Below, piece after piece: positions 25,191 to 29,658 of a DNA stretch of 64,000 nt. Made by a program: the position numbers and the translations under genes. The first letter of the stretch is position 1, and every line of letters starts with the position of its first letter. The DNA is from Bacillus sp. Cs-700 (GTDB taxonomy: Bacteria > Bacillota > Bacilli > Bacillales > Guptibacillaceae). The notes beneath the pieces were generated by a model. That model ran no database searches, was not told the DNA's origin, and was given only the letters and a program-made list of their open reading frames with translations. The stretch is taken from contig NZ_CP041063.1 of assembly GCF_011082085.1 (NCBI RefSeq), positions 2,480,001 to 2,544,000 on the forward strand. Direction: 5' to 3'.

Positions 25191-26663
25191 TTACATCCCA
25201 CCAAGTAAGTTTTGTTGTACCCATGCACTCTGCTGATTAAGCTGACTCATCGCCGTTTCAAGCGTAGAGAACTGTTTCCAATACCGATCTTCAATCGTAA
25301 CGAGCTTATCTTCCCAGTTTTCCATCTGTTCATCTAAATCTTTTAACCTCGTTGAAAGAAAGCTACTATCAACAAGCGTTCCTGGCGTCCCTGCTTTTTT
25401 TCCTAGCTGATCGATCCCTTTGTTAACAGAGTCGTAAAGACGATCGCCAATCCCTTCTGTCCCGCTCGTAAAAAGATTCATGACCTCTTCAGGCTTTTGT
25501 TCTAGGGCACTCTTTAATTTGGCTTCGTCGATAAAGAGCTTGCCTCCATCCTGATAAGAACCGGTATTGATTCCAACTTGAGAAAGCATGCTAAGCTCAC
25601 CTGCCGGAATTCCGCTAACCGGTGACATCCAGGCATTGCGGAGATCACTCACAATCCCCCGAACAGTCGCATCACTTTGCAGCATCCCGCTTTTCGCTTT
25701 CTCTTCCCAAAGTTCGATCTCTTTTTCGGTAAGATCTTCTCTTTGCGCATCGGTGAGCGGAGGGAAATCGCGGTTTCGTTTTTCCGTCAGCATCCCCTGC
25801 GCTTTATCAATAAACTCGTTGTACTTCTCAACAAAATTCTTAATCATGTCAAAAGGAGCCTGGACATCACTTTGGACCGATACAGTGGAAGTCCCTTTTT
25901 GGACAAGGTCAAGCTTTAAGTGATTAATCGTTGTGGTATTCGTTTTCAAGTTATCGACAACAATGCCATCAAACGTCACAGAACCATACTTCCCTTGTGC
26001 AGTACTTGCTGCGCCACCGAGAATGCGACTTTCTACCGTTGGATCAGTAAACCCAAGCGTAAAGGTCTCATCCCCACCCATCGCTTTGGATGAAATGAAG
26101 AAGCGAGAGGTCGTGTCATCGTAGCTTGCTCGTAAGCCAAGTGATTCACCTGTTGTACCATCAGTCGCACCGGCGATTTTTTCTGCGAGACTTTTAAAGG
26201 TGTCTGTTGAAGTGATCGTAATGGAAGCCATTTGCCCTTTGCTATTTGTAAGCTGAAGCATTGTATCCGCTTCACCTGTTTGAAGTACTTTATCCGTTCC
26301 CTTTGCGGCTGTGCCCGCTTCATTTTGAATCGCTTGTCCTGATGTAAACTTGGCGCTTTGAGCGAGTTCGTTAACGGTAACCGAATAAGAACCCGGGACA
26401 GAGGCAGATGTCGTTGTAGCAGTAACGGCTCCTGTGTTAGATGAAACGATTTTAAAAGCATTGTAACCAGACTGCAACCGCATCGATGAAGCCGTGCTTC
26501 GCATATCCGACATCATTGTATTTAATTCACGATACGATTCCTTCTGCCATTCCATCGTTTGCTTCTTTTGAGACAATTTATCGAGCGGAATTCGCTCCGC
26601 CATCATGAGATCTTTTACCATCTGATCTGTATCCATCCCCGTCGCTAACCCGGAAATTCTCAT
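25191..26663 (-). CDS. fliD: Flagellar filament cap protein FliD
   Basis: FliD caps the growing filament. The 490-residue protein starts at MRISGLATGMDTDQMVKDLM (ATG 26661-26663), because GGAGGAG is 6 bases upstream of this ATG and abuts the earlier one. It has the FliD N-terminal domain, a variable middle and the C-terminal domain (KALEQKPEEVMNLF-like region, then TIEDRYWKQFSTLETAMSQL). A near-perfect sigma-D promoter lies upstream. Confidence 0.95.
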   Translation of the reverse strand: MRISGLATGMDTDQMVKDLMMAERIPLDKLSQKKQTMEWQKESYRELNTMMSDMRSTASSMRLQSGYNAFKIVSSNTGAVTATTTSASVPGSYSVTVNELAQSAKFTSGQAIQNEAGTAAKGTDKVLQTGEADTMLQLTNSKGQMASITITSTDTFKSLAEKIAGATDGTTGESLGLRASYDDTTSRFFISSKAMGGDETFTLGFTDPTVESRILGGAASTAQGKYGSVTFDGIVVDNLKTNTTTINHLKLDLVQKGTSTVSVQSDVQAPFDMIKNFVEKYNEFIDKAQGMLTEKRNRDFPPLTDAQREDLTEKEIELWEEKAKSGMLQSDATVRGIVSDLRNAWMSPVSGIPAGELSMLSQVGINTGSYQDGGKLFIDEAKLKSALEQKPEEVMNLFTSGTEGIGDRLYDSVNKGIDQLGKKAGTPGTLVDSSFLSTRLKDLDEQMENWEDKLVTIEDRYWKQFSTLETAMSQLNQQSAWVQQNLLGGM

Positions 26664-26696
26664 GAACATCTCCTCCGTTCATACCTTCTATTGATA

Positions 26697-26723
26697 CTAT
26701 CGGCAGGGTTAGGTAATTTTTTA
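26697..26723 (-). promoter_or_regulatory. Sigma-D promoter of fliD
   Basis: Minus strand: TAAA (26720-26723), exactly 15 bases, then GCCGATAG (26697-26704); sigma-D consensus is TAAA-N15-GCCGATAT. It lies 34 bp before the fliD start and probably drives fliD, the FliT-like gene, fliS and perhaps motAB-fliL. Confidence 0.85.
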
Positions 26724-26771
26724 AGGTGTAAAAAGACCTAAAAAAGAACCCTCCATCGAAAGTTCAAACAC

Positions 26772-27110
26772 TCAGATTTTATGATCGACCATAAAGCCGA
26801 GCAGCTCAGCCGTTGCCGCGTAGCGATCGAGGAACTTTTTTGAAGGGATTTCTTTAATAACTTCATCAGTTTGCGAATCGATGATCTGAACGTAGTATTC
26901 GTTTAGTTTGTCATGGAGTTGGAATTTGAGTGAGGTTTGAGATGGTTCGAGGTAGGTGTTTAGAGCTTTGATGTGGTGCTCAATGGTGTCTTTCGATAAA
27001 ACCTTTTCTTCTACCTCATGCTTTTCGATCGCCTTATTCATTTCAGTATTTTTTGTTTGAGTGAACTTAGTTGATCCAATAGGTGCAGTTGAAACGTCTC
27101 TTAGTTCCAT
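26772..27110 (-). CDS. flaG: FlaG family flagellar protein
   Basis: FlaG (YvyC) proteins affect filament length; the mechanism is unclear. The 112-residue product has the conserved C-terminal part LKFQLHDKLNEYYVQIIDSQ, TDEVIKEIPSKKFLDRYAA, after a polar N-terminus. TTGGAGAG precedes the ATG. It lies just after the hag terminator and before fliD, as in B. subtilis. I see no clear promoter of its own; readthrough from hag is possible. Confidence 0.9.
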   Translation of the reverse strand: MELRDVSTAPIGSTKFTQTKNTEMNKAIEKHEVEEKVLSKDTIEHHIKALNTYLEPSQTSLKFQLHDKLNEYYVQIIDSQTDEVIKEIPSKKFLDRYAATAELLGFMVDHKI

Positions 27111-27140
27111 CAGCTACTCTCCAATTCCGTATCAATTTGT

Positions 27141-27175
27141 TTTAAAAAAGGTGGCCTTCAATTGAAGACCACCTT
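27141..27175 (-). terminator. Rho-independent terminator of the hag transcript, after the 3' exon
   Basis: On the minus strand the stem AAGGTGGTCTTCAA / TTGAAGGCCACCTT (27148-27175, one G-U pair) is followed by a run of U (27141-27149). It lies 10 bp after the stop codon of the second flagellin C-terminus, not after the hag stop, so the intron and 3' exon belong to the hag transcription unit. Confidence 0.9.
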
Positions 27176-27184
27176 GTGAGTAAA

Positions 27185-27237
27185 TTAACGTAGAAGTTGT
27201 AGTACAGCTTGTGGCTGTTGGTTGGCTTGCTTTGCCG
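27185..27237 (-). other. Flagellin 3' exon behind a group I intron (second C-terminus)
   Basis: The minus strand here encodes AKQANQQPQAVLQLLR and a TAA (27185-27187): the canonical end of a Bacillus flagellin, with no start codon or N-terminus of its own. The hag gene upstream already ends in QANQSSSAVLQLLR, so this is a second C-terminus, clearly diverged at codon level. Joined to the T left by a 5' splice at the hag stop codon, the frame reads SAKQANQQPQAVLQLLR. Its place between intron and terminator makes a downstream exon more likely than a random relic, though a relic of a deleted tandem flagellin cannot be excluded. Confidence 0.8.
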
Positions 27238-27554
27238 CTGTTCCTTTCGGATACAGAATAGACTATATCTTCACCTCTCGTGTTCGAAAGGGCCGGGCAC
27301 TTCGAATGGCGTTTGCCCCCCTACGGATTTCATCACCATAGCTTTCGCCTTAGATGGTTTATCCTAGTCGTTGAACCTTCCCCACTCTTTCGAGACAGGA
27401 GCTTGGCTGCTGATTATCCAATCTTAATTCTTTTCAACCCATCACGCTCACCGTTTTCAGTCACGTTGTGGGGAATCAAGCTTAAGGAAGTTCCAGCAAT
27501 TCACCCGGTTATGCTCTTACCCGTTACCAGATAAGACGCCCTGTTCAATCAATT
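27238..27554 (-). ncRNA. Group I self-splicing intron at the flagellin stop codon (IA-like, no endonuclease)
   Basis: About 317 nt. Conserved boxes on the minus strand: P AAUUGCUGGAA (27491-27501), Q AAUCAGCAGCC (27405-27415), R GUUCAACGACUAG (27364-27376), S AAGAUAUAGUC (27261-27271). Helices: P4 GCUG/CAGC, P7 GACUA/UAGUC, P3 CCGGGU (27503-27508)/GCCCGG (27293-27298), P8 CCUUUCG (27285-27291)/CGAGAGG (27274-27280), a P7.1-type hairpin after R, and P9 around a GAAA loop near 27250. P1 candidate: exon UAAGAU (27555-27560) with guide GUCUUA (27532-27537), giving the required U-G pair at the cut and an intron starting AAUUGA. The last G is 27238 or 27235; both keep frame. Group I introns are known in flagellin genes of thermophilic bacilli. 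Confidence 0.88.
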
Positions 27555-28404
27555 ATCTTAGCAGCTGAAGCACTGCAGAAGAACTTTGATTGGCTTGAGC
27601 CAACATTGCTTGTGATGCCTGGTTAAGAATATTGTTCTTAGTGAAATCCATCATTTCTTTTGCCATGTCTACATCGCGGATACGAGATTCTGCGGCTGTT
27701 AGGTTTTGTGCAGTAGTTCCAAGGTTGTTAATCGAATGTTCAAGACGGTTTTGAACTGCACCTAATTTTGAGCGTTCTTCAGAAACTAAAGTTATTGCAG
27801 TATCGATGGTTGTTATTGCTGCAGTTGCTACAGCATTTGTAGAAGAAATATCTATAGCATCTGCCGTCTCATCATCAGCTGTGGCAACACCAAGCCCCGT
27901 GCCACCAGTCATATCTGAGATAGTAACAGAAATTGTTTGACTTTCATTTGCGCCTACTTGGAAATTAAATGTTCCAGTACCTGTACTAGTACCATCAAGA
28001 AGACTTTCAGTATTAAATTCAGTATTGGTAGTGATTCTATTTAGTTCTTTTGCTAACTGATTTGCTTCCGTTTGAAGAGCCTTTCTATCGTCAACATTGT
28101 TAGTATCGTTGGAAGCCTGAACAGCTAATTCACGCATACGTTGTAAAATAGCATGTGACTCATTTAAACCGCCCTCAGCAGTTTGAAGCAAGGAAATTCC
28201 ATCTTGAGAATTACGACTTGCCTGCTCAAGACCACGAATCTGGCCACGCATTTTCTCAGAAATTGAAAGTCCTGCCGCATCGTCCCCAGCACGGTTAATA
28301 CGAAGACCAGAAGAAAGTTTCTCCATGTTCTTAGATGCATTTAGTTGGTTCGCACCCATCTGATTGTACGTGTTCATTGCTGCTAAGTTGTGATTAATAA
28401 TCAT
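27553..28404 (-). CDS. hag: Flagellin (filament subunit); stop codon interrupted by a group I intron
   Basis: The main filament protein. The unspliced frame gives 283 residues: N-terminal D0/D1 (MIINHNLAAMNTYNQMGANQ; KLSSGLRINRAGDDAAGLSI), a short variable middle without D2/D3, and C-terminal D1/D0 (ESRIRDVDMAKEMMDFTKNN; ANQSSSAVLQLLR). GGAGG lies 10 bases before the ATG. Splicing at T|AA of the stop would extend the protein by about 16-17 residues that repeat the terminus; without splicing the normal-looking end is made. Transcription comes from a sigma-D promoter, and the leader has two CsrA sites. Confidence 0.96.
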   Translation of the reverse strand: MIINHNLAAMNTYNQMGANQLNASKNMEKLSSGLRINRAGDDAAGLSISEKMRGQIRGLEQASRNSQDGISLLQTAEGGLNESHAILQRMRELAVQASNDTNNVDDRKALQTEANQLAKELNRITTNTEFNTESLLDGTSTGTGTFNFQVGANESQTISVTISDMTGGTGLGVATADDETADAIDISSTNAVATAAITTIDTAITLVSEERSKLGAVQNRLEHSINNLGTTAQNLTAAESRIRDVDMAKEMMDFTKNNILNQASQAMLAQANQSSSAVLQLLR

Positions 28405-28413
28405 TTAAAATCT

Positions 28414-28423
28414 ACCTCCATGT
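28414..28423 (-). promoter_or_regulatory. CsrA binding site overlapping the hag ribosome binding site
   Basis: The leader RNA reads ACAUGGAGGU, a full match to the CsrA consensus ACANGGANGU, and its GGAGG is the hag ribosome binding site. In B. subtilis CsrA bound here blocks hag translation and FliW relieves it; both genes lie just upstream. Confidence 0.8.
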
Positions 28424-28446
28424 AATTGGTTTTATCAAGAAAATCC

Positions 28447-28456
28447 ACATCCGTTT
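28447..28456 (-). promoter_or_regulatory. Upstream CsrA binding site in the hag leader
   Basis: AAACGGAUGU matches ACANGGANGU at 9 of 10 positions and lies 23 bases before the site at the ribosome binding site. Two spaced GGA sites bound by one CsrA dimer is the arrangement known for B. subtilis hag. Confidence 0.65.
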
Positions 28457-28475
28457 GGACTTCCTAACACCCCTA

Positions 28476-28502
28476 TTATCGGCAGGCATTTTAGGATGTT
28501 TA
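28476..28502 (-). promoter_or_regulatory. Sigma-D promoter of hag
   Basis: Minus strand: TAAA (28499-28502), 15 bases, GCCGATAA (28476-28483), almost the consensus TAAA-N15-GCCGATAT. It lies after the terminator of the csrA unit, so hag has its own transcript with a leader of about 65-70 nt. Confidence 0.92.
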
Positions 28503-28523
28503 ATAGTTTTCTGAAAAATATTT

Positions 28524-28553
28524 AAAAAGAACCGCATCTATAGATAGCGGTTC
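28524..28553 (-). terminator. Terminator of the fliW-csrA-VOC unit
   Basis: Minus strand GAACCGC / GCGGTTC stem around an AT-rich loop, followed by UUUUU (28524-28528). It separates the fliW-csrA unit from hag. Confidence 0.8.
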
Positions 28554-28569
28554 CACTCTTACTAACAAT

Positions 28570-28965
28570 TTATCTTAAATGCGCAAATTCTTCCTTTTCA
28601 TAAAGCCCCGGCAAATAAGCCTCAAGCCTACTCCCATCCGGATCATAAAATTTAAAATGCGCGATTCCATCTTCTTCATCAACCGTGACGCCACGCTCTC
28701 GCAGCTCATTCTTAAACGTTTCCGCATTCTTCTCTGCTAAATGCAGAACCGGATAAGACCCGCTCGCATCAATTGAAGGAAGCTCTTCTCCTTCCTTCAA
28801 CTCTATCAAGCAAATCGCCGTCTGCCCTTCACCAACACCAAGCACCACGGTACCACCGTAGTTCTTCGTCACATGAAGACCGAGCATTTCTTCGTACCAT
28901 TTCACTGCGTTCTTAATATCCCGCACACGAATGTTCACTTGATAAACGCCTTCAAAGAAACTCAT
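28570..28965 (-). CDS. VOC (glyoxalase/dioxygenase fold) family protein
   Basis: A 131-residue protein with one vicinal-oxygen-chelate unit pair: VYQVNIRVRDIKNAVKWYEE at the start and FKFYDPDGSRLEAYLPGLY at the end, typical metal-ligand regions. GGAGGG precedes the ATG at 28963-28965. The substrate cannot be told. It sits between csrA and hag, 10 bp after csrA, and shares its transcript; in B. subtilis csrA and hag are direct neighbours. Confidence 0.85.
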   Translation of the reverse strand: MSFFEGVYQVNIRVRDIKNAVKWYEEMLGLHVTKNYGGTVVLGVGEGQTAICLIELKEGEELPSIDASGSYPVLHLAEKNAETFKNELRERGVTVDEEDGIAHFKFYDPDGSRLEAYLPGLYEKEEFAHLR

Positions 28966-28975
28966 CAAGTCCCTC

Positions 28976-29209
28976 CTATGAACTCGTATTTTTCCTGAAC
29001 TCCTTCAAATCCTCCAAGCTAAACTCCTGCATCGCGGCAAGCTTATTCTCTGACTGAATGGCTTCATATACTTCTTTTCGGTGGATGGCAATATTCTTCG
29101 GTGCTTCTACACCTAGCTTCACCGTATCGCCGTCAATGCTAATGATTTTTAGTTCAATTTCATCATTAATCACAATTGATTCGCCTTTTTTACGTCCAAG
29201 TACGAGCAT
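28976..29209 (-). CDS. csrA: Translational regulator CsrA
   Basis: CsrA is an RNA-binding dimer that blocks translation of hag mRNA in Bacillus. The 77-residue protein has the full CsrA fold: [20 protein letters not shown], then [20 protein letters not shown]. The RNA-contact residues (L4, R6, the [11 protein letters not shown] strand and R44) are present. Its start overlaps the fliW stop by one base. The C-terminal tail is typical of long Bacillus CsrA. Confidence 0.96.
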
Positions 29210-29658
29210 TACTCCGCCTCCTCTGTGTTCACTTGCTTTAAGAGAGGTTCTTTGATGCCATACTCCTGTTTTAAGACAAGTTGTTTTCCAGTATGTTCTT
29301 CGGTGTTAAAAATTAGCGGTGCTTTTAAATTCATCGTCGCTTCTTTTAATGAACCCTGAACAGTAAGAATCGAGAGCACAAGCGCATGGGCTGGATCGGT
29401 TAAATTAAGCTGAGCGAGCGTGCTATCGTCAAGGTTTACTTCATAATTTGGGTAAAAGGAAAACGGATCGGCGAGAAAAAAGCATAGGCCGCTTTCTTCT
29501 GTTGATTGTAAAAAGTAAAAAGGAGACTCATCTTTGTCATCAGCGGGTAATAGACAGTAAGTTGTAAAGTGCTCAAGGCCAGGGATGCCACTTTCAAACG
29601 TGACGAGACGTTCTTCGGTGACGTCCATTTCTCCAAAGCGTGCAGTATGTAATTTCAT
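29209..29658 (-). CDS. fliW: Flagellar assembly factor FliW (CsrA antagonist)
   Basis: FliW binds either flagellin or CsrA; free FliW releases CsrA from hag mRNA. The 149-residue product has family motifs [20 protein letters not shown] and [27 protein letters not shown] lies before the ATG; a TATAAT box at 29692-29697 (minus strand) may be its -10. It overlaps csrA, so the two are translated together. Confidence 0.95.

Follow-up and report, generated by a model that had tools for sequence, protein, structure and literature searches.

Group I introns in flagellin genes are known from thermophilic Bacillus and Geobacillus (Hayakawa and Ishizuka, 2009; Hayakawa and Ishizuka, 2012; both via PMC3984707 and PMC4853749), and passages of PMC4853749 give them the label IA2 and describe their splicing as temperature-dependent. 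At the locus described here, too, a flagellin gene of Bacillota carries a group I intron, and the published introns may correspond to either of the two types distinguished below. Sections of PMC3984707 further discuss translation outrunning folding as a problem for such introns, and add that the in-frame stops present in many of them may aid folding by stalling ribosomes. Two more distant systems bear comparison. The psbA intron of cyanophage S-PM2, also of group I, lies in a protein gene and its splicing is regulated; according to an excerpt of PMC5931967, its unspliced message is unlikely to yield a functional protein, whereas the unspliced message of our locus encodes a complete protein. 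In yeast HAC1, as described in part of PMC8002603, a functional C-terminal peptide of the unspliced product is encoded at the 5' end of the intron, as appears to be the case here; however, that intron is not of group I, and its peptide destroys the unspliced product, whereas the one reported here appears to complete it. Closer at hand, the Bacillus recA and nrdE introns belong to the same catalytic family and both occur in relatives of the organism studied here, but at other insertion sites and, unlike the flagellin intron, with no copy of a C-terminus seen in them. The sections of the literature covered yielded no intron-encoded spare C-terminus, and part of what is set out here may already appear in Hayakawa and Ishizuka (2009, 2012). 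Within those sources, flagellin group I introns are known and the spare ending is apparently the unreported part.

Bacteria translate during transcription, so that an intron in a protein-coding gene should yield truncated protein before it has folded and been excised. The flagellin gene hag is, moreover, very highly expressed. Here, we analyze the hag locus in a stretch of 64,000 nucleotides (the window) of Bacillus sp. Cs-700 (NZ_CP041063.1, positions 2,480,001 to 2,544,000). We propose that a group I intron occupies an A|Q boundary near the end of hag, and that, as its sequence and those of its relatives would have it, splicing gives the ancestral end of the protein and the unspliced message a spare one, with flagellin full-length either way; we regard this account as likely.

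Results

A group I intron on the sense strand of hag

An earlier note on this DNA, made from the sequence alone, had placed a complete group I intron without an endonuclease ORF on the hag sense strand. Both points are borne out for that strand. A covariance search of 26500-28800 with RF00028 (Rfam Intron_gpI) matches 27556-27238 on the minus strand over the whole model (positions 1-253), with 80.8 bits (E = 2.1e-20) against a gathering score of 50, and this is the sole match reported across the 4.3-Mb genome; the single-sequence fold of 27220-27620 has a z-score of -2.99. Within the intron, the list of open reading frames has none of at least 50 residues on the sense strand. On the opposite strand, an 84-codon ORF with a GTG start (27280-27534, plus strand) lies within the intron and a 52-residue ORF (27209-27367) overlaps it.

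Among 15 genomes of the family, RF00028 scores above the cut-off in nine, with 14 matches listed, which by eye comprise eight in hag (in eight genomes), two in nrdE, three in recA, and a weak one without an assigned gene. All eight hag introns lie between two complete C-termini. The other seven genomes have an intronless hag, and two of them (G005 and G006) have the 3' flank seen in the window. A blastn search of window positions 27180-27580 against 397 genomes of the order gave matches in 237, many of them, to judge by E-value, short and confined to the exon. Sixty further stretches were fetched, mainly from the better blastn matches, and loci L017-L096 and L127-L216 were scanned for the conserved R box with at most two mismatches. 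The cores flanked by an exon anchor at either end amount to 44 introns of a second type lying upstream in hag (type 1) and 86 of the type found in the window (type 2), 84 of which are distinct. Outside these counts stand two exact cores, namely the second core of L192 and that of L205, along with inexact cores that have no exon anchor (e.g., chance hits in L020). In L192, a broken copy of the end of exon 2 stands ahead of the second core, and in L205 the 5' part is of type 1 and the 3' part of type 2; both look like recombined or decayed flagellin loci.

The structure was examined in alignment A1, which holds 81 of the 84 distinct type-2 introns (L039, L178, and L195 were left out). Over 11 helices with 49 pairs, 96.9% of cells are paired and 28 pairs have changes on both sides; covariation over the whole structure is 0.356 against 0.129 for shuffled alignments, with none of 500 shuffles as high, and falls to at most 0.069 when the structure is slid. 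The conserved core is present in full: paired cells make up 100% in P3, P4, and P7, 100 and 99.6% in P6, and 90.7% in P8. Both strands of a pair change in P3, P6, and P8, but not in P4 and P7. P4 (UGCUGG/UCAGCA) and P7 (GACUA at 27365..27369 with UAGUC at 27261..27265), the two helices that the earlier note had singled out as exact, are indeed each paired in all 81 relatives, P4 hardly varying and P7 never. P1 consists of 4 bp between GCUC (27600-27597) and the internal guide GGGC (27538..27541), paired in 81/81, and places a U-G wobble (27598/27540) at the splice site, a placement that draws on conservation and on by-eye comparison with type 1, without covariation in type 2. Since P1, P4, and P7 hardly vary, each is uninformative, or nearly so, taken alone. 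The P2 hairpin that follows the guide (27516..27535; 27535-27530 with 27521-27516) changes on both sides in six of its six pairs. By sequence and structure, including the terminal G and P9.0 considered below, the interruption of hag is a group I intron whose own strand lacks an endonuclease gene.

The inferred junctions follow an alanine codon and a terminal G

Comparison of the 84 distinct type-2 introns gives the junctions GCT|CAA and G|CAA, which set the window intron at 27597..27230 on the minus strand, with the 5' site after 27598 and the 3' site after 27230. At 368 nt, it is longer than the roughly 317 nt first estimated. Upstream, exon 1 (28404..27598, minus strand), delimited by the ORF and the conserved GCT, ends in NQASQAMLA, its last codon being GCT with the U at the splice site; downstream, exon 2 (27229..27185, minus strand) encodes QANQQPQAVLQLLR followed by TAA. 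The 3' site falls 8 nt past the end of the Rfam match. The model end was rejected as the intron end, since the nrdE intron of L010 likewise runs beyond it to the exon junction.

Several lines of evidence support these junctions. Immediately ahead of the spare ending stands a GCT codon in 83 of the 84 introns, the exception (L039) being a case where the script anchored two codons early and GCT is present by eye; the same codon is GCT in only 21 of 53 flagellin ends that have no intron core nearby. At the other side, the base before the CAA of exon 2 is G in 84/84, although it falls within codons as varied as AAG, TGG, GTG, CCG, GCG, TAG, and CTG, indicating that it is the G that is conserved and not the residues before CAA as protein. 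P9.0 forms between the two bases ahead of this terminal G and the third and fourth bases past the P7 strand (in the window, UU at 27257..27258 with AA at 27232-27231, adjoining the G at 27230), in the compensatory combinations UU:AA (67), CA:UG (8), and AC:GU (3) in 78 of 81 introns; the remaining three are not fully paired in the tested register. When the exons are joined at these sites, the product aligns with the intronless hag genes of L102 and L112 with 163/182 and 164/181 identities and zero gaps. In type-1 introns, the triplet at the splice site is GAT in 44/44 and the aligned guide triplet is GUC in the rows inspected by eye; set against the GCU and GGC of the corresponding region in type 2, this points to a matching change of splice site and guide between the types.

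The earlier note had instead let the intron split the hag stop codon at its T (T|AA). On this model, the intron would end at 27238 or 3 nt further, and splicing would add a second C-terminus in frame, such as LLR-S-AKQANQQPQAVLQLLR. Such a join preserves the reading frame in the window and, when worked through by hand, in the majority of relatives, and the GRU before the stop can pair with a guide GUC (U-G in 79/81, R-U in 79/81, and G-C or G-U in 72/81, one gap row included). However, the GUCUUA of the P1 then proposed (UAAGAU/GUCUUA) lies largely in P2, the bases of which covary as P2, and the helix itself, although 83.1% of its cells are paired, covaries no more than shuffled alignments do (0.201 against a mean of 0.205, with 332 of 500 shuffles scoring at least as high), which argues against a splice site at the stop codon. 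Moreover, joining that site to the Rfam end leaves 51 gap columns against the two intronless genes L102 and L112; by hand, it makes a T|AG stop in L176, L187, L189, L198, and L202, and finds no open in-frame join in L072 and L089. It also leaves the conserved GCT and final G unexplained. We therefore consider a split stop codon very unlikely: the stop lies 42 nt downstream of the 5' site placed at GCT|CAA, where it closes a copy of the flagellin C-terminus that the intron encodes.

The surroundings of the gene also read differently from the first impression, which was of a normal hag followed by about 440 bp of empty sequence, for 27229..27185 is a second, in-frame, conserved flagellin C-terminus. 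Behind it, a hairpin followed by a T run (27145..27175, minus strand) is by eye the probable hag terminator; a pattern scan did not list it. On the other side, a 132-residue ORF (28570-28968, minus strand), VOC/glyoxalase-like by eye, lies between hag and csrA-fliW-like genes (28976-29658).

The intron begins with a second coding sequence for the flagellin C-terminus

The hag ORF (28404-27553) ends in AMLAQANQSSSAVLQLLR and continues past the 5' splice site: the first 45 bases of the intron (27597..27553, minus strand) encode 14 residues in frame with exon 1, QANQSSSAVLQLLR, followed by TAA (27555-27553). The frame of exon 1 runs into the intron for 14 codons and then stops in 80 of the 84 type-2 introns, 14 codons being the length in each of the 80, a rate to be read as that of loci taken mainly from the best-scoring matches and hence not an unbiased one. 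The peptide repeats the end of flagellin, with VLQLL and then R, Q, G, or K, and equals exon 2 in length. Over all 84 introns, the first in-frame stop is TAA in 74, TAG in six, and TGA in four. A copy is lacking in four introns, in which the frame instead reads QFEQIAA (L167), EMAA as anchored (L039), or 23 residues (L178), or stops at once (L195). The tree and the pN/pS estimates draw on the 80 copy-bearing rows, which span 23 family labels of the order along with a few named loci.

Selection on the copy is visible at the level of the protein. When close relatives are compared in 40 disjoint pairs, the copy has a pN/pS of 0.172, next to 0.162 in the final 20 codons of exon 1 and 0.114 in exon 2; the respective values are 0.155, 0.126, and 0.115 in 61 nearest-neighbor pairs and 0.213, 0.227, and 0.124 over all 3160 pairs. 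These values disfavor neutrality. Gene conversion from exon 2, or neutral survival after a duplication, would fit the likeness of the spare ending to exon 2 in residues (84% identity on average), but the nucleotide identity between a copy and its own exon 2 averages 68% and never exceeds 81%, and this disparity between nucleotides and residues speaks against recent conversion. Differences between copies of relatives also concentrate at third codon positions (67/23/140 over the 40 pairs). Conversion or neutral persistence is accordingly highly improbable. More improbable still is that the intron is dead or bypassed, with flagellin made from the unspliced message alone and exon 2 a relic: the unspliced message does encode a complete flagellin, but exon 2 is under stronger selection than the copy, and the ribozyme core is conserved with covariation.

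The two endings also agree at their tips. Copy and exon 2 close on the same residue in 79 of 80 rows (R/R in 70, Q/Q in six, and G/G in three), the exception being K/R, and on a tree built without the bases of the copy itself, Q/Q needs four changes, three of them forced by supported branches, and G/G one. The codons used for this residue are unlike. In 73 clean rows of 74 (72 Arg and one Lys), the copy ends in AGA, AGG, CGG, CGA, or once AAG, and never in CGT or CGC, the lone CGT coming from L192, a misassigned row, whereas exon 2 ends in CGT in 68 of 74. Pairing of GRU with GUC was not accepted as the cause of this bias; each row offers one informative base.

An alternative that retains both endings is that the spare one forms the tip of a distinct isoform, with splicing, perhaps in response to temperature, switching between functionally different C-termini. 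A few positions do set the copy apart from exon 2 (in the window, SSS in place of QPQ), and parts of the discussion in PMC4853749 report temperature-dependent splicing of flagellin introns in thermophilic bacilli. Against this, the tip of the copy follows that of exon 2 in nearly every row, suggesting a function that matches rather than diverges, and we hold such a switch to be rather unlikely.

Intron starts in type-1 hag, recA, and nrdE

The type-1 introns, found at 44 loci (e.g., L137, L140, and L141), interrupt hag further upstream, inside RDVD|MAKEMM. Their in-frame start reads YALAA and a stop after RDVD in 32/44, and ends in AA in 42/44. For comparison, the tmRNA tags of 15 loci end in FALAA (9), SLAAA (1), or FALAAA (1), with no ARAGORN call in four. 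Codons 4-5 of the type-1 start have a full 5-bp hairpin partner in 39/44, and RNA structure alone may therefore explain the conservation of YALAA; by eye, codons 1-2 can pair with sequence before the guide, and type-1 P1 is apparently longer than that of type 2. In recA, long matches were found in nine of 397 genomes of the order (L233-L241), with starts FGN|QRLVA and a stop in four and QLVVA, QRIVA, QLQTA, RYMVA, and QFTLGFPC in one each, so that eight of nine have a five-residue in-frame tail ending in A before the stop. Two nrdE introns have an in-frame stop at or near the junction.

Most starts of the type-1 hag and recA introns, on their sequences, look like degradation tails. We suggest, tentatively and as something that may well not hold, that group I introns in bacterial protein genes could be selected to encode a 5' peptide that renders the unspliced product harmless, in the form of a substitute C-terminus when the intron lies near the end of the gene and of a tmRNA-like degradation tail when it lies further inside. 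If true, such introns would solve the conflict between coupled translation and RNA folding at the level of the protein.

Discussion

Sequence comparison shows directly that the intron is present, where its junctions lie, that it carries the copy, and that both endings are under selection as protein. On the proposed account, in which flagellin is complete with or without splicing, joining at GCU|C and G|C would produce an mRNA for the ancestral end, QAMLA-QANQQPQAVLQLLR, and a ribosome arriving at the intron ahead of splicing, or translating RNA that is never spliced, would produce full-length flagellin ending in QANQSSSAVLQLLR. The predicted splicing would then take place in the cell, and spliced and unspliced messages would both supply useful amounts of protein. 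Protein-level constraint on both endings argues that both hag messages are probably translated. The short P1 of 4 bp may slow splicing. The host genus is not known to be thermophilic. Temperature could play some role in the window intron.

The benefit in hag would be that a failure of splicing, or translation that comes too early, is made harmless. With a spare end on the unspliced message, the intron would cost little even when translation outruns splicing. The type-2 hag introns would thus represent a way round coupled translation, and one that has left an evolutionary trace in the form of a second coding sequence under protein-level selection. Annotation based on ORFs is expected to display an apparently normal hag at such loci and to miss the ancestral last exon. 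More generally, how introns survive in bacterial coding genes would become a question that can be tested.
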